The notes beneath the pieces were generated by a model, which worked only from the letters and a program-made list of their open reading frames with translations, ran no database searches and was not told the origin of the DNA. From NCBI RefSeq assembly GCF_022227765.1, contig NZ_JAJMLZ010000003.1, positions 248,001-312,000 on the forward strand: a DNA stretch of 64,000 nucleotides, read 5' to 3'. Of the stretch, positions 48,063 through 53,639 are shown one piece after another. The DNA is from Ectothiorhodospira shaposhnikovii (lineage in GTDB: Bacteria; Pseudomonadota; Gammaproteobacteria; Ectothiorhodospirales; Ectothiorhodospiraceae). Numbering within the stretch: the stretch's first letter is position 1; each line of letters begins with the position of its first letter. The position numbers and the translations under genes are program-made.

Positions 48063-48190
48063 GCGCGTCACTGGATCCCATACGCCCCTATCATGCACGG
48101 TTGGTCCCTCGCGCGTTCTAGGTAAAGGAAAAACGACCGGGTGGTTATGCTATCTTCGTTCCAGGTTCAAAAAGCGGTGGAGACTGGGCC

Positions 48191-48559
48191 TTGGAGGCGA
48201 AACTGCTGGTGGCCGTGGTGGCGGACGAGCTTGAGGAGGCGGCACGGGAAATTGCCCGGGAGGAGGGTGCTCGCGGGATGACGCTGATCTCCGCGCGTGG
48301 CCTGAATTTCCCGGAACACATCACCTTCTTCGGTCTGACCTACTACGGTATCGAGACGGTCCTGGTGGCGTTGCTGGACGAAGCCACGGCGATCCGGATC
48401 GCGGAGCGGATGAACATTGAATTGAAGCTGCTGGAACCGTTCAAGGGTCTTGCCTTCTGCCTCCCGGTGGAAGGTGTCGGCGGGATCGACATCGAGGCGC
48501 TGCATCGCCACATCATCGAACTCGGCCCGGTTGACCGCCTGGAAGACAGCCCTCGCTGA
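48191..48559 (+). CDS. PII-like small regulatory protein (upstream copy)
   Basis: A 122-residue protein with the beta-alpha-beta pattern of PII proteins (LLVAVVADELEEAAREIARE, GARGMTLISARG, TFFGLTYYGIETVLVALLDE, GLAFCLPVEGVGGID). Compared with GlnB the T-loop is shortened: the TELYRGAEY stretch, including the uridylylated Tyr, is missing and GLNFPEHITFFGLTY takes its place. The TTG start fits because it aligns with the ATG of the second copy (50116) and has GGTGGAG upstream, the same ribosome site seen before that copy. It lies 42 bases before the DUF1538 gene. A regulatory subunit of that transporter is the obvious guess. Confidence 0.72.
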   Translation: MEAKLLVAVVADELEEAAREIAREEGARGMTLISARGLNFPEHITFFGLTYYGIETVLVALLDEATAIRIAERMNIELKLLEPFKGLAFCLPVEGVGGIDIEALHRHIIELGPVDRLEDSPR

Positions 48560-48601
48560 AGCCTGCCCCATCCTCTCCCTTCACCAGACAAAGCCACGCC
48601 C

Positions 48602-50119
48602 GTGAACCAACTCAGGGAATTCCTGCACTTACTGAACCATGCGTTCCGAAATCTGCTGCCGATCATCCTGGTGGTCGGCATCTTTCAGTTCCTGATCATC
48701 CGTCAGGTCCCGGACCAGTGGTTGCCCATGGCCATCGGTCTGCTGGTGGTCGTGCTGGGTGTTGCGTTGTTCCTGCAAGGGCTTGAGCTGGGGATTTTTC
48801 CCATTGGCAAGAACCTGTCCAACGAGTTCGCGCGCAAAGGCTCATTGCCGCTCTTGATGATATTCGGCTTTTGTCTGGGGTTTGCCGCCGTGGTGGCGGA
48901 ACCTGCGTTGATCGCGGTCGCAAGTCAGGCGGAGATCATCAGCGAAGGCAGGATCAGTGCGATGATATTGAGGTTGCTTGTCGCGGTATCCGTCGGCCTG
49001 GTGGTGGCACTGGGCGTGGTGCGGATTCTGCTTGGGCACAGTCTGCACTGGTACATGATCATTGGCTATGTCGTGGTGGTGATCGTGACTTTTTTCGCAC
49101 CGGAGGAGATCGTCGGGCTGGCGTATGACTCCGGTGGCGTGACCACGAACATCGTGACCGTGCCACTGATCGCGGCCCTGGGGATCGGCCTGGCGGTATC
49201 GGTGCGCGGTCGCAATCCCCTGATTCACGGTTTCGGACTGGTCGGGCTGGCGGTCATGGTGCCGATGATCTCGGTGCAGATCTACGGGATCATCGTGTAC
49301 AGCTTCGGTGAGGCTCGGGAGGTGACCCAGGGTATTGTGGAAGCGGTGGCGGACCCGGTGGTCACCGAGGTGGTTCAGGAGATCGCCGGCAGCGTGGTAT
49401 TGGGCATGCTGCGCGACCTGATGATCATGTTCCGCGACGTGCTGCCGATCATCGCGGTCGTCCTGATCTTCCAGTATCTGGTGATCCGCAAGCATATTGC
49501 CCATCTGCACAAGGTGATGGGAGGTTTCCTGCTGGTGATCGTCGGCCTCTACGCTTTCGTGGTGGGCCTGAAGATGGGGCTGTTTCCCATCGGCCAGACC
49601 ATGGCCGAGCAGTTGATCGGACTGGACCGCTGGCTCTTCGTATACCTGTTCGCCTTTGCCATCGGTTTCGCTACGACCATGGCCGAACCCGCCCTGATCG
49701 CCATCGGTCAGAAGGCAGAGGAGGCGGCGAAGGGCCAGCTCAACGGCAACGTGATCCGCATCCTGGTCGCGGTGGGTGTCGCGATCGGGATTACCATCGG
49801 GGTGCACCGCATCATTGCCGGCGATTCGATCCACTATTACATCATGGCCGGTTATGCCGTGGTGATCCTGCTGACCTTCCTGTCCCCGAAATACATCGTG
49901 GCACTGGCTTACGATCTGGGTGGCGTGACCACTTCCGAAGTGACCGTGCCGCTGGTGACGGCGCTGGGTATCGGTCTGGCCACGCACATCGAGGGGCGCA
50001 ACGTGATGATCGACGGTTTTGGTCTGATCGCGTTCGCCTCCATCTTTCCCATCATGTCCGTGATGCTCTACGCCATCGCGGTTGAACTCGCCAAGCGGTG
50101 GAGAGAGGCTGAATCATGA
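48602..50119 (+). CDS. Duplicated DUF1538 membrane protein (UmpAB-like antiporter candidate)
   Basis: A 505-residue membrane protein made of two homologous halves, about 1-235 and 265-505. Paired motifs are AEPALIA (99-105 and 361-367), LAYDSGGVTT/LAYDLGGVTT (173 and 435), GIFPIG/GLFPIG and HSLHWYMIIGY/DSIHYYIMAGY. Each half has about six helices. From memory, a DUF1538 pair called UmpAB was reported in a Halomonas species as a two-subunit Na+(Li+,K+)/H+ antiporter; here both are fused. It starts with GTG. It lies between two PII-like genes, overlapping the second by four bases. Transport of ions under nucleotide or metabolite control is inferred. Confidence 0.8.
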   Translation: MNQLREFLHLLNHAFRNLLPIILVVGIFQFLIIRQVPDQWLPMAIGLLVVVLGVALFLQGLELGIFPIGKNLSNEFARKGSLPLLMIFGFCLGFAAVVAEPALIAVASQAEIISEGRISAMILRLLVAVSVGLVVALGVVRILLGHSLHWYMIIGYVVVVIVTFFAPEEIVGLAYDSGGVTTNIVTVPLIAALGIGLAVSVRGRNPLIHGFGLVGLAVMVPMISVQIYGIIVYSFGEAREVTQGIVEAVADPVVTEVVQEIAGSVVLGMLRDLMIMFRDVLPIIAVVLIFQYLVIRKHIAHLHKVMGGFLLVIVGLYAFVVGLKMGLFPIGQTMAEQLIGLDRWLFVYLFAFAIGFATTMAEPALIAIGQKAEEAAKGQLNGNVIRILVAVGVAIGITIGVHRIIAGDSIHYYIMAGYAVVILLTFLSPKYIVALAYDLGGVTTSEVTVPLVTALGIGLATHIEGRNVMIDGFGLIAFASIFPIMSVMLYAIAVELAKRWREAES

Positions 50120-50463
50120 AATTTGCGGTACTTGTCGCGATCATCGCTGATGACCTTGAGGAAAAGGCCATCGACATCGCCAAGAAGGCGGGTGCCGGCG
50201 GAGTGACGATGCTGGATGCCCGCGGGATCGGTGCCAAGGAAAAGAAGACCTTTTTCGGACTCACCTACGAGGGCTCTCAGAGTGTGTTGATCTGCGTGCT
50301 GGAAAAGAAGCTGTCGCTGCGGGTGATGAAGGCACTGACGGCGGAACTCGAACTGGCCAGACACTCCAAGGGGGTGGTCTTCACCGTGCCGTTGGATCAC
50401 ATCGCCGGCATCGACACCCGGCAGCTTGAGAGTTTCGAGGCGCGTATCAAGGACGACATCTGA
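50116..50463 (+). CDS. PII-like small regulatory protein (downstream copy)
   Basis: A 115-residue paralogue of 48191-48559: FAVLVAIIADDLEEKAIDIA, GAGGVTMLDARGIG, TFFGLTYEGSQSVLICVLEK and GVVFTVPLDHIAGID align along the full length. As in the other copy the T-loop is short and lacks the modified tyrosine. The ATG overlaps the DUF1538 stop (ATGA), giving near-equal translation of both. Its C-terminus is a short acidic helix. The two copies differ clearly in sequence, so a heterotrimer or separate signals are possible. Function is inferred from context only. Confidence 0.72.
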   Translation: MKFAVLVAIIADDLEEKAIDIAKKAGAGGVTMLDARGIGAKEKKTFFGLTYEGSQSVLICVLEKKLSLRVMKALTAELELARHSKGVVFTVPLDHIAGIDTRQLESFEARIKDDI

Positions 50464-50520: not shown

Positions 50521-51504
50521 ATGAATGCCAGCAAGATAGTGGTGGCCCGTACCCCCGTGCTCTCACTCATCCTGGTTGGGCTGATGATCTACTCCCTCAC
50601 CGTGGCCATGGCGGATGAGGACCGCCCCATCGAACACATTCTTGAGCCACGGGCTATCACGGAGCAGATTCATTACTTTTACGGCTCCCTGGAAAACCGA
50701 ACCCAGGCCAACCAAGGCATGAATAATAATGTGGGTTTCGTGATCACCGACGAGGGGGTGGTACTGATCGATAGCGGTCCCAGTCGCCACGTGGCCCAGC
50801 GCATCGAGCAGGCCGTGGCTGGACTGACCGACCACCCCATTACCCATGTGATCAATCTGGGCAGTCAGGATCACCGCTGGCTGGGCAACGATCACTTCCT
50901 CTCCAGAGGGGCCGAGATCCTGGCACTGGAACGCACCGCCTCCACCCAGGCAGAGTTCGCCCGGCAGCACCTGGAGCGTCTGATGACCACCCTGGGCGCA
51001 GCCGCCATGGCAGGGACCGAGCCGCGTCCCGCTCCGGCGCCCATCCCCGCTGATGATCATGAATTCGAGCTGGGCGGGGTGCGCTTCAAGATGGTTTATG
51101 CCGGCGACGCCCACTTCCCTGGGGATATCCTCCTGCATCTGCCTGATCATGGCGTGGTTTTTGCTGGTGATGTGGTCTATACCGAGCGCATGCTGGGCAT
51201 TCATCCCTGGAGCAATCCGGTGGAACAGCTCAAGGCCTTCGAGACGATGGCTTCCTGGGAGCCGGCAGTGATCGTTCCCGGCCACGGTAAGGCCACCGAT
51301 CTGGCCACGGCGCAGCGGGATACCGGCGATTACCTGGCCATGCTGGTGCGCGAGGTCAAGGAAGGTCTGGTGCACTGGGAGACCCTGGACGAAGTGGTGA
51401 CACGCCTGGCGGACCTGCCGGAATTTCGGCACTTGCGCCATTACGACGATTGGCACCGGATGAACATCAATCGTACCTATCTGTTCATGGAGGTCGGTTT
51501 TTAA
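50521..51504 (+). CDS. Exported metallo-beta-lactamase-fold protein with degenerate metal site
   Basis: A 327-residue protein with an N-terminal hydrophobic signal (PVLSLILVGLMIYSLTVAMA). It resembles SoxH/quinoprotein-relay metallohydrolases: NNVGFVITDEGVVLIDSGPS, VIN-L-GSQDH-RWLGN, the GDAHFPGD segment, FAGDVVYTERMLGIHPW and VPGHGKATD. The normal NTHGHPDH motif is replaced by LGSQDH at residues 113-118: the first two histidines are Leu and Ser, while D117 and H118 remain. Two of the three zinc-1 ligands are therefore missing and a zinc-2-type site may persist. The ATG at 50521 has AGGAG upstream. It may be a binding protein, not a hydrolase. Confidence 0.75.
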   Translation: MNASKIVVARTPVLSLILVGLMIYSLTVAMADEDRPIEHILEPRAITEQIHYFYGSLENRTQANQGMNNNVGFVITDEGVVLIDSGPSRHVAQRIEQAVAGLTDHPITHVINLGSQDHRWLGNDHFLSRGAEILALERTASTQAEFARQHLERLMTTLGAAAMAGTEPRPAPAPIPADDHEFELGGVRFKMVYAGDAHFPGDILLHLPDHGVVFAGDVVYTERMLGIHPWSNPVEQLKAFETMASWEPAVIVPGHGKATDLATAQRDTGDYLAMLVREVKEGLVHWETLDEVVTRLADLPEFRHLRHYDDWHRMNINRTYLFMEVGF

Positions 51505-51515
51505 AGCCTCGGGCG

Positions 51516-51567
51516 TTTCATGCGATCTATACATTCGCTTGCCCGCATATATGAAATGGCGTATTCT
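51516..51567 (+). promoter_or_regulatory. Promoter and inverted repeat upstream of arsD
   Basis: TTGCCC (51539-51544) and TATTCT (51562-51567) are 17 bases apart. The arms TTTCATGCG (51516-51524) and CGCATATATGAAA (51544-51556) form an imperfect inverted repeat across the -35, a likely operator. ArsR is not encoded in the window. Confidence 0.5.
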
Positions 51568-51603
51568 CTGGCCGTGTTGTCATCCACGACGAGGGACTCA
51601 CCC

Positions 51604-51930
51604 ATGACCGAGATCACCGTATTCGATCCCCCCCAGTGCTGTGCCAGCGGCGTTTGCGGACCCAGCGTGGACCCAAAGCTCTCCAGACTGGCGGGCGACC
51701 TGGCCTGGCTGCGTCAGTCCGGGGTGACCGTGACTCGCTACAACCTGGCCCAGCAACCGGGGGCCTTCGTGGAGAACGCCGCCATCCAGGCCATTCTGGA
51801 GAAGGACGGCGAGGACGCCCTGCCGGTATTTCTGGTGGACGGAGAAGTGAAGAGTCAGGGCGTATACCCGGATCGGGAGCAACTGGCCCAATGGACCGGG
51901 CTGGAGACGGAATGCGGCAAGAGCGCATGA
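51604..51930 (+). CDS. arsD: ArsD arsenic metallochaperone
   Basis: A 108-residue thioredoxin-fold chaperone that carries As(III)/Sb(III) to ArsA. The trivalent arsenic site is Cys12, Cys13 and Cys18 in DPPQCCASGVCGPSVDP, all intact. The later segments LAWLRQSGVTVTRYNL and LPVFLVDGEV are family-typical. The ATG at 51604 starts MTEITVFD as in other ArsD proteins, while a frame extending to 51520 runs through the promoter. It overlaps arsA by four bases (ATGA), so chaperone and pump ATPase are coupled. Confidence 0.93.
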   Translation: MTEITVFDPPQCCASGVCGPSVDPKLSRLAGDLAWLRQSGVTVTRYNLAQQPGAFVENAAIQAILEKDGEDALPVFLVDGEVKSQGVYPDREQLAQWTGLETECGKSA

Positions 51931-53639
51931 ATTTCCTCCACCCCCCCACCCGACATCTCTTCTTCACCGGCAAGGGCGGCGTGGGCAAGACCTCACTGGC
52001 CTGTGCCAGTGCCCTGGCCCTGGCGGAACAGGGCAAAAAGGTCCTGCTCATCTCCACCGACCCGGCTTCCAACGTGGATGAAGTGCTGGAGACCCCACTC
52101 TCCGATTCACCGACCCCCATCCCGGCGGTTCCCGGCCTCCAGGCCCTGAACATCGATCCGGAAAAAGCCGCTGCCGCCTATCGCGAACGGGTGGTAGGCC
52201 CTTACCGGGGCAAGCTCCCGGAGGCGGTGGTGAACAGTATGGAGGAACAGCTCTCCGGTGCCTGTACCATGGAGATTGCCGCATTCGATGCCTTCGCCGC
52301 GCTATTGGGCGATGCCCAATCCACCCGGGACTTCGATCATCTGATCTTCGATACCGCGCCCACGGGGCATACCCTGCGCCTCCTGTCCTTGCCCAGTGCC
52401 TGGACGGGATATATCGAAACCAACACCTCCGGCACCTCCTGTCTGGGTCCCCTGGAGGGACTGACCAACCAGAAGGCGATCTATGCCCAGGCCGTGGATA
52501 GCCTGGGAGACGGCAAGCGCACCACACTCATTCTCGTGAGCCGCCCCGAAGCGGCGGCCCTTAAGGAAGCGGCCCGTTCCAGTGGAGAACTGCGGGAGTT
52601 GGGCGTGACCAACCAGCATCTGGTGGTGAATGGTCTGTTTCAGGCAGTGGATGCGGAAGATCCGGTGGCCCGGGCCCTGGAGGCACGGGGGCGCCGGGCT
52701 CTGACGCACATGCCTGCGTCGCTCCGGGATCTGCCTCGAAGCGAACGCCCGCTACGTGGACGCCCCCCCATGGGCCTGGAAGGCATGCGTATTCTTCTGG
52801 CGGAGGCGGAACCCCCGCTCGAAGCCACTGAATCGGTTCAGGCACCCGAAGGTGAGACCTTCGAGACCCTGGTGGAGTCCCTGGGTCGCCGCGGCCATGG
52901 CGCCATCATGACCATGGGCAAGGGCGGCGTGGGCAAGACCACCCTGGCGGCCCGTATCGCGGTGACCCTGGCCCGTCACGGCCACAAGGTCCACCTGACC
53001 ACCACGGACCCGGCAGCCCATGTGGAGGCTGCCGTGGGCGAGATCCCCGAAGGCATGACCATCGGGCGGGTGGACCCGGCCCTGGAGACCCGGCGTTATC
53101 GGGAAGAGGTCATGGCCTCCGCCGGCAAGGGTCTGGATGAGGAGGGGCGCCGGTTGCTGGAAGAGGACCTGCGTTCTCCCTGCACCGAGGAAATCGCCGT
53201 CTTCCAGGCTTTTGCCAGGACCGTCGATCAGGCCCGGGATCAGTTTGTGGTCCTGGACACGGCTCCCACCGGTCACACCATCCTGCTGCTGGATGCCGCG
53301 CAGGCCTACCACCGGGAGTTGGGGCGCCAGAGTCAGGGTGTGCCCGAAGCGGTGGAACAGTTGTTGCCCCGGTTGCGGGATCCAGCCTTTACCCATGTGG
53401 TGATCTGCGCCCTGCCCGAAGCCACTCCCGTGCATGAAGCGGCGGCCTTACAGGCCGATCTGCGTCGAGCCGGTATCGAACCCGCCGGCTGGATCGTCAA
53501 TCAGGCACTGAGCCCGTTGAAGGTGAGCGATCCCATCCTGCGAGCACGTCAGGCCGCCGAGGGTCGATGGCTCCGGGAAATCCTTGAGCAGCATCACCGA
53601 AGACTCGTCGTGGAACCCTGGAGCGAGATCCACGACTGA
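51927..53639 (+). CDS. arsA: ArsA arsenite efflux pump ATPase, duplicated
   Basis: A 570-residue two-domain ATPase that drives an ArsB/Acr3 membrane pump. Walker A occurs twice, GKGGVGKT at 15-22 and again in MGKGGVGKTTLAARIA in the second half. The DTAP signal-transduction motif appears twice (FDTAPTGHTLRLL and LDTAPTGHTILLL). Metal-site cysteines are seen in SGACTMEIAAF, SGTSCLGPLEG and SPCTEEIAVF, matching Cys113, Cys172 and Cys422 of the plasmid R773 enzyme. The ATG overlaps the arsD stop. No pump gene (arsB or acr3) lies in the window, so the partner must be elsewhere or lost. Confidence 0.94.
   Translation: MNFLHPPTRHLFFTGKGGVGKTSLACASALALAEQGKKVLLISTDPASNVDEVLETPLSDSPTPIPAVPGLQALNIDPEKAAAAYRERVVGPYRGKLPEAVVNSMEEQLSGACTMEIAAFDAFAALLGDAQSTRDFDHLIFDTAPTGHTLRLLSLPSAWTGYIETNTSGTSCLGPLEGLTNQKAIYAQAVDSLGDGKRTTLILVSRPEAAALKEAARSSGELRELGVTNQHLVVNGLFQAVDAEDPVARALEARGRRALTHMPASLRDLPRSERPLRGRPPMGLEGMRILLAEAEPPLEATESVQAPEGETFETLVESLGRRGHGAIMTMGKGGVGKTTLAARIAVTLARHGHKVHLTTTDPAAHVEAAVGEIPEGMTIGRVDPALETRRYREEVMASAGKGLDEEGRRLLEEDLRSPCTEEIAVFQAFARTVDQARDQFVVLDTAPTGHTILLLDAAQAYHRELGRQSQGVPEAVEQLLPRLRDPAFTHVVICALPEATPVHEAAALQADLRRAGIEPAGWIVNQALSPLKVSDPILRARQAAEGRWLREILEQHHRRLVVEPWSEIHD

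Follow-up and report, generated by a model that had tools for sequence, protein, structure and literature searches.

The stretch of DNA analysed here (the window) comprises 64,000 nucleotides of Ectothiorhodospira shaposhnikovii (contig NZ_JAJMLZ010000003.1, positions 248,001 to 312,000) and was found to carry three consecutive open reading frames (ORFs) on the plus strand, encoding a PII-like protein (PII1), a fused double DUF1538 membrane protein and a second PII-like protein (PII2) (Table 1). An earlier reading of the letters without database searches (the sequence-only reading) had described paralogous PII-like genes on both sides of a fused DUF1538-DUF1538 gene. This description holds, as all three ORFs were located at the stated positions. 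Comparison with related loci gives good support, by linkage, to the view that a family of cation/proton antiporters has a dedicated PII-like partner which is widely conserved. Promoter and terminator predictions gave counts similar to those for shuffled sequence.

Table 1. Features of the PII-DUF1538-PII locus (positions are those of the window)
Feature	Position	Strand	Evidence
PII1, PII-like protein, 122 aa, TTG start, T-loop type FPEHITFFGLTY	48191..48559	+	ORF, P-II 17.1 bits (cut-off 25), tree
Fused double DUF1538 membrane protein, 505 aa, GTG start, UmpA-like half then UmpB-like half	48602..50119	+	Pfam 440.9 bits
First DUF1538 domain, UmpA-like; E100-P101 near-invariant, D176 invariant before GGVTT motif	48662..49294	+	Pfam, alignment
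Second DUF1538 domain, UmpB-like; E362-P363 and D438 invariant before GGVTT motif	49448..50077	+	Pfam, alignment
PII2, PII-like protein, 115 aa, T-loop type KKTFFGLTYEGSQ; conserved downstream partner	50116..50463	+	P-II 33.7 bits
ATGA stop/start overlap, DUF1538/PII2	50116..50119	+	sequence
AGCGGTGGAGA, PII1 ribosome site	48173..48183	+	11-mer, not conserved in relatives
AGCGGTGGAGA, PII2 ribosome site, within DUF1538 coding end	50094..50104	+	11-mer, not conserved in relatives

The middle protein matches DUF1538 (PF07556) twice, far above the cut-off of 22.6 bits, and the genome search returned no other DUF1538 match in its own genome. UmpA and UmpB are its best NCBIfam models, each being matched over nearly the whole model. 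The suggestion of the sequence-only reading that DUF1538 pairs are cation/proton antiporters is in line with the literature, since UmpAB of Halomonas zhaodongensis belongs to them (PMC5484666; papers are cited here and below from the parts of their text that were available). UmpAB is a hetero-dimer formed by a DUF1538 pair and carries out Na+(Li+,K+)/H+ antiport with a pH optimum of 9; umpAB alone rescued antiporter-deficient E. coli, and vesicles showed antiport with Na+, Li+ and K+ (PMC5484666). A growth-pH predictor also has DUF1538 in its top-20 table (PMC13255231). By analogy, the fused window protein would exchange Na+/K+ for H+ as UmpAB does. In an alignment of the window protein with 32 relatives (33 sequences, identity as low as 23%), no variation is seen at D176, E362-P363 and D438 and almost none at E100-P101. 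The structure model of the protein (pLDDT 82.3) has helix breaks at the EP and GGVTT motifs in both halves, and these motifs are plausible ion sites. No fold match in the PDB was obtained for this model at E <=0.001 (best E 0.022, TM 0.2), so that the substrate is not inferable from the fold.

The two PII-like proteins share 37% identity and group together in the tree, with PII2 lying above and PII1 below the cut-off of the Pfam P-II model (PF00543). Besides this pair, the genome has two canonical GlnB/GlnK genes and two further PII-like genes (contigs C1 and C4). Relative to the two canonical copies, the T-loop of the window proteins is shorter by 5 residues, and both have Gly in the Tyr51 column; a Tyr is found two columns from that position in both window proteins (Phe in 13/77 and Cys in 1/77 PII2-type rows). 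GlnB-like control by uridylylation at Tyr51 is excluded because the residue is missing, and to this extent the sequence-only reading was right that the T-loop lacks the modified tyrosine and that the proteins are not controllable like GlnB. The columns of Gly27, Thr29, Gly35 and Gly89 are kept in both proteins, and Gly37 is kept in PII2 and is Asn in PII1. Those of Gln39, Lys58, Lys90, Arg101 and Arg103, which we take to be the phosphate, Mg and 2-oxoglutarate site of canonical PII, read K, gap, V, G, D in PII2 and P, gap, L, G, D in PII1. The marks of a canonical GlnB/GlnK, namely Tyr51 in a full-length T-loop and these five residues, are thus lacking. The loop has a core of its own, KxFFG, which is invariant in PII2-type rows (K44, F46, F47 and G48 in 77/77) and is preceded by PEH in PII1-type rows (P41, E42 and H43 in 14/14); the alignment had 106 rows, and those left out were 6 that duplicate the window's own genes, 8 that are divergent and 1 that is truncated. 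To judge from their sequences, both proteins may bind an adenine nucleotide.

The model of PII2 (pLDDT 78.8, with the T-loop partly <50) falls by fold with the PII-like CPII/SbtB group, its top matches being CPII and TTHA0516, both at E 1.5e-6, and SbtB at 1.6e-6 (TM ~0.6), with classical GlnK near at E 4.8e-6. A C-terminal redox cysteine loop has been reported as a feature of SbtB (PMC10991534); no cysteine was found in the C-terminal part of PII2, and only 1/77 PII2-type rows has one within the last 30 residues. In the PII tree, which rests on few columns and has an unsettled bootstrap, a PII1 group (with other upstream PII-like genes and three solo copies; 99/95) and a PII2 group (98/91) are adjacent.

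The DUF1538 and PII2 genes share an ATGA overlap, as the sequence-only reading had stated, and the same spacing of -4 nt is kept in 72/77 DUF1538-to-PII junctions (one of the 77 being a DUF1538b-PII1 junction, see below). Translational coupling of the two genes through the ATGA may be expected from this arrangement. The 11-mer AGCGGTGGAGA has exactly two occurrences in the window, against 0.05 expected, one at each PII-like gene. It recurs upstream of 0/26 PII genes in 13 relatives with the same sandwich order, and GGAG lies <=30 nt from 18/26 of them; the pair is consequently regarded as a chance local resemblance between otherwise ordinary ribosome sites. The matching ribosome sites noted in the sequence-only reading are real in the window, but were rejected as a feature of the cassette since they are not conserved.

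A scan of species genomes yielded 223 confirmed relatives, and the counts for fused loci rest on the best 80 of the 223. A PII gene lies downstream of DUF1538 in 75/77 fused loci with room for one, and in 72/75 a CBS-pair gene follows <=1100 nt downstream (exceptions L009, L032 and L042; Pfam matched CBS on four of these genes). A PII gene <=200 nt upstream as well, giving the sandwich, is seen in 13/78; upstream PII matches at L060 and L061 were rejected as sandwiches, being part of a neighbouring cassette. The usual fused cassette is therefore DUF1538-PII-CBS and the sandwich is a minority form. The genome search for the three-gene order proposed with the sequence-only reading thus upheld the DUF1538-PII pair but not the full sandwich, and of the dedicated regulated cassette which that reading envisaged, the conserved PII-like partner stands and the sandwich is not defining. 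The CBS-pair gene, absent from that reading, completes the usual cassette and is found here on another contig.

The linkage extends beyond the fused genes. Of 299 genomes drawn evenly from the phylum, 116 had DUF1538, and the best-scoring 30 loci included 29 with PII within the fetched flank. From 35/37 positive genera (the window's own genus being handled apart and one weak-hit genus left unfetched) 38 regions were obtained, in which PII is downstream of DUF1538 in 34/40 units: 23/29 split UmpA-UmpB units, 4/4 fused and 7/7 long fused. With PII called at E 1e-9, 110 of the 299 genomes had both genes, 5 PII only, 6 DUF1538 only and 178 neither; at E 1e-20 the respective counts were 90, 5, 26 and 178. 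In the window's genus, two of nine other members (G299 and G306) have no match to the DUF1538 protein and also none to the PII-like proteins. DUF1538-PII cassettes were also found in Halomonas. DUF1538 relatives were present in 9 of 72,556 plasmid records, 6/9 of them from Clostridia, and PII directly follows DUF1538 in 9/9 (7 PII genes annotated and 2 unannotated ones found by our own PII profile). On five of the Clostridia plasmids (L251, L252, L253, L255 and L256) the downstream PII gene has two tandem PII domains according to our profile, the first being weak in L252; among three of the five scanned, the Pfam P-II model sees both domains only in L253, and the sixth Clostridia plasmid PII was judged by length only. 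The linkage of PII to the transporter gene accordingly spans several DUF1538 architectures and two phyla.

Some loci show further arrangements. In the Nitrincola pair L060, with the order PII-UmpA-UmpB-PII-CBS, UmpB scores 500.4, just over the NCBI cut-off of 500, and UmpA 417.6, under 490. Long DUF1538 fusions at L137 and L150 (ORFs of 595-608 aa) are followed by two tandem PII genes and no CBS gene; L158 resembles them by eye, with no Pfam match in its second small protein. On the minus strand of L133, two antiporters stand in one gene run (fused DUF1538-PII-CBS-PII-UmpA-UmpB). On the Chelativorans plasmid (L250:2118-2390) the first DUF1538 gene is annotated at only 90 codons and is perhaps shortened.

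The origin of the sandwich is suggested by relatives carrying a second DUF1538 gene (DUF1538b). The order DUF1538b-PII1-DUF1538a-PII2-CBS is found at L211 and L033 (the latter probably on the same contig as L213), DUF1538b is inverted at L209 and L066, and there is a fifth copy at the end of a contig (L201). All five DUF1538b proteins fall into a single clade (100/100). Because relatives have this order and the window genome has no second DUF1538, PII1 may be the former partner of a DUF1538b gene that the window genome has since lost. Alternatively, DUF1538b could have been inserted later beside an existing PII1. The sandwich of the window is seen as a derived arrangement.

The DUF1538 copy of the window shares 96% identity with that of Ectothiorhodospira magna, where neither PII1 nor CBS adjoins it, and 91% with that of G321, which has the order PII1-DUF1538-PII2-CBS. 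At the nucleotide level the left flank is 95% identical to G300, the cassette (48140-50463) is 83% identical to G321, and the right flank is again 93-96% identical to G300, where it lies on another contig. These blocks change partner at the cassette edges, which points to horizontal gain of the cassette. This right flank includes (50521-53639), as native sequence outside the cassette, a gene of metallo-beta-lactamase fold, whose nearest models are SoxH-related quinoprotein-relay hydrolases (with scores under the cut-offs), followed by arsD and a gene for a double ArsA-type ATPase. The native locus of the genus reads mazG-nadC-DUF1538-PII-CBS-MCP (Pfam names) in 5/7 other members with DUF1538. 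On contig C1 of the window genome (L005:1413-1486, L216) the native DUF1538 is deleted save for its last ~25 codons, and PII and CBS are intact. The dN/dS values against G321 (PII1 0.18, DUF1538 0.07, PII2 0.10) show purifying selection on the genes of the window cassette; those of the orphan PII (0.03) and CBS (0.07) on contig C1 against G300 are also low, much of which divergence may predate the deletion.

Contig C4 (L217:3683-5901) has a K+/H+ antiporter gene (NF003715, 763.6 bits) that is preceded, at a distance of 56 nt, by a solo PII-like gene. A wider rule, that this PII group adjoins cation/proton antiporters, was dropped because such a neighbour was seen at only 3 of the 13 solo or tandem PII loci examined. 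Genomes of one genus of the family carry paired PII-like genes (L222-L227) at a distance from their DUF1538 genes; L218 has a similar pair, of which the first member belongs to the PII1 group and the second is unplaced in the tree.

The window probably holds a variant of a widespread cassette in which a DUF1538/UmpAB cation/proton antiporter is provided with its own adenylate-sensing PII-like regulators. Control of transport by the window proteins is predicted, and might proceed as follows. The fused DUF1538 protein would act in the manner of UmpAB, exchanging Na+/K+ for H+, and the PII-like proteins would assemble as trimers and bind an adenine nucleotide that carries few phosphates, with AMP or ADP likelier than Mg-ATP with 2-oxoglutarate. 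The short FFGLT T-loop would dock on the cytoplasmic face of the antiporter, and the docked PII would restrain it when the energy charge or ion state is wrong. As UmpAB alone is active in E. coli, the PII partner would be a modulator and not a needed subunit. PII1 may have begun as the partner of a second DUF1538 gene and been retained after the loss of that gene, and the CBS-pair protein of the native locus, next to the orphan PII, would act in trans. A broader proposal, put forward tentatively as a possibility, is that UmpAB-type antiporters almost always come with a PII-type adenylate sensor and that several lineages use two different PII domains per pseudo-two-fold transporter (the sandwich, the PII-PII pairs after long DUF1538 and the two-domain fusions of Clostridia). 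Such a hetero-PII sensor, often CBS-aided, would link the energy state to Na+/H+ exchange by a non-trimeric transporter, unlike known PII-controlled transporters.

Several observations weigh against this interpretation. The middle protein lies under both NCBIfam cut-offs, for UmpA (446.4, cut-off 490) and UmpB (395.7, cut-off 500), and is for this reason described as a fused homologue and not as a certified UmpAB orthologue. The fold search separates PII types poorly, giving 274 PDB matches at E <=0.001, and classical GlnK trails the top matches so closely that fold alone cannot single out a subtype. The solved chains closest to it in a sequence-profile search are 9p1x and TTHA0516; classical P-II comes next, SbtB stands at 0.023 and there is no CPII entry among the matches listed. 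Among fused loci L032 has neither PII nor CBS, and L042 has both upstream instead. Downstream PII is lacking in 6/29 split units, one of which (L133) has PII upstream, and CBS is missing from 20/40 units and downstream in 0/7 long fused ones. With PII called at E 0.001 the 299 genomes divide into 113 with both, 30 with PII only, 3 with DUF1538 only and 153 with neither. Finally, because the relatives have a common ancestry, the counts do not represent independent trials, and Fisher values for co-occurrence are given no meaning.

Other explanations have to be set beside this one. The DUF1538 protein might mainly move another solute, e.g. bicarbonate or another anion with Na+, and the PII-like proteins might regulate it as SbtB does SbtA. 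CPII and SbtB, the top fold matches of PII2, have entry titles tied to bicarbonate or carbon, the DUF1538 fold itself gives no substrate without a confident PDB match, and many of the best 80 of the 223 relatives carry names of sulfur- or phototrophic genera. This explanation is nevertheless judged unlikely, given the rescue of E. coli and the Na+, Li+ and K+ antiport in vesicles by UmpAB (PMC5484666), and DUF1538-PII cassettes on Clostridia plasmids and in Halomonas. It also seems quite unlikely that the PII-like proteins are merely co-expressed with the transporter and have their targets elsewhere (enzymes or other transporters): the strong co-occurrence in the 299 genomes, the start-stop overlap and the joint absence in G299 and G306 all speak against it, even though PII proteins can have several targets (PMC10710835), solo or tandem copies exist without an adjoining DUF1538 (including that on C4), and the orphan PII on C1 persists without its transporter gene.

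Two further explanations concern the signal. In B. subtilis the PII-like DarA and the CBS-pair DarB are the two receptors made only of a c-di-AMP-binding domain (PMC7900238), and a c-di-AMP system of the type PstA/DarA with DarB could be read into the pairing of PII-like and CBS genes; a strong diadenylate cyclase match was found in 14 of 28 genomes of other classes and a weak one in 3. But no match to diadenylate cyclase (DAC domain) was found in the window's own genome (99.96% complete), nor in any of the tested genomes of its class (0/8, own included), and the CBS protein has CBS-CP12 as its nearest solved sequence, with no DarB-named entry among the 32 solved matches listed. For want of a cyclase match in the genome, c-di-AMP, which the sequence-only reading had named among possible ligands, was rejected as the signal, and such a system is very improbable; the absence of such a match from the tested class genomes favours AMP, ADP or ATP. 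That the proteins are ordinary nitrogen-type GlnB/GlnK, uridylylated and sensing 2-oxoglutarate, is hardly conceivable: PII2 does exceed the Pfam P-II cut-off, but Tyr51, Gln39, Lys58, Lys90, Arg101 and Arg103 are all changed and two canonical PII copies are present elsewhere in the genome.

If an antiporter with its own adenylate-sensing PII-like regulators is indeed encoded here, UmpAB-type antiporters would gain a dedicated sensor that is undescribed in the literature searched; no PII partner of DUF1538 was described in that literature, which left out most subscription papers and all preprints. PII control would then reach beyond the uptake of nitrogen and carbon to the balance of sodium, potassium and pH. 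The pairing of DUF1538 with PII in very different bacteria suggests that some cells tune their salt and pH balance by a dedicated sensor, and the model raises the question of whether the adenylate state switches Na+/H+ exchange in haloalkaliphiles.

The cassette can be compared with several known systems. With UmpAB of H. zhaodongensis (NCBIfam NF041627/NF041628) the window protein shares two DUF1538 domains, the A-B order and halves matching nearly whole models; it differs in being one fused chain scoring under both NCBI cut-offs. The available text of the UmpAB paper contains neither 'P-II' nor 'nitrogen', and umpB is the last of the four ORFs reported there for the cloned insert (PMC5484666). 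A Borrelia membrane protein with a PII-like domain was set aside, as it is not of the family described here. DarA/PstA and DarB of Bacillota likewise combine a PII-like protein with a stand-alone CBS pair (PMC7900238), whereas the window host has no diadenylate cyclase match and the genes of the window family are linked to an antiporter. AmtB-GlnK resembles the cassette in that a transporter gene is linked to a PII gene, with a model of blocking by the T-loop (PMC10710835), but in the window PII lacks Tyr51, has a T-loop 5 residues shorter and the transporter is not an Amt. In SbtA-SbtB and CPII, too, a PII-like fold is found and a PII gene works with a membrane transporter (PMC10710835). Window PII2 differs from SbtB in its distinct FFGLT T-loop, the lack of a C-terminal cysteine loop and weak sequence similarity, and the transporter here is DUF1538, often with a CBS gene added. 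AMP-bound SbtB inhibits (locks) SbtA and GlnK blocks AmtB (PMC10710835), and of these the locking of SbtA by AMP-bound SbtB would, by analogy, be the nearest mechanism for the window cassette.

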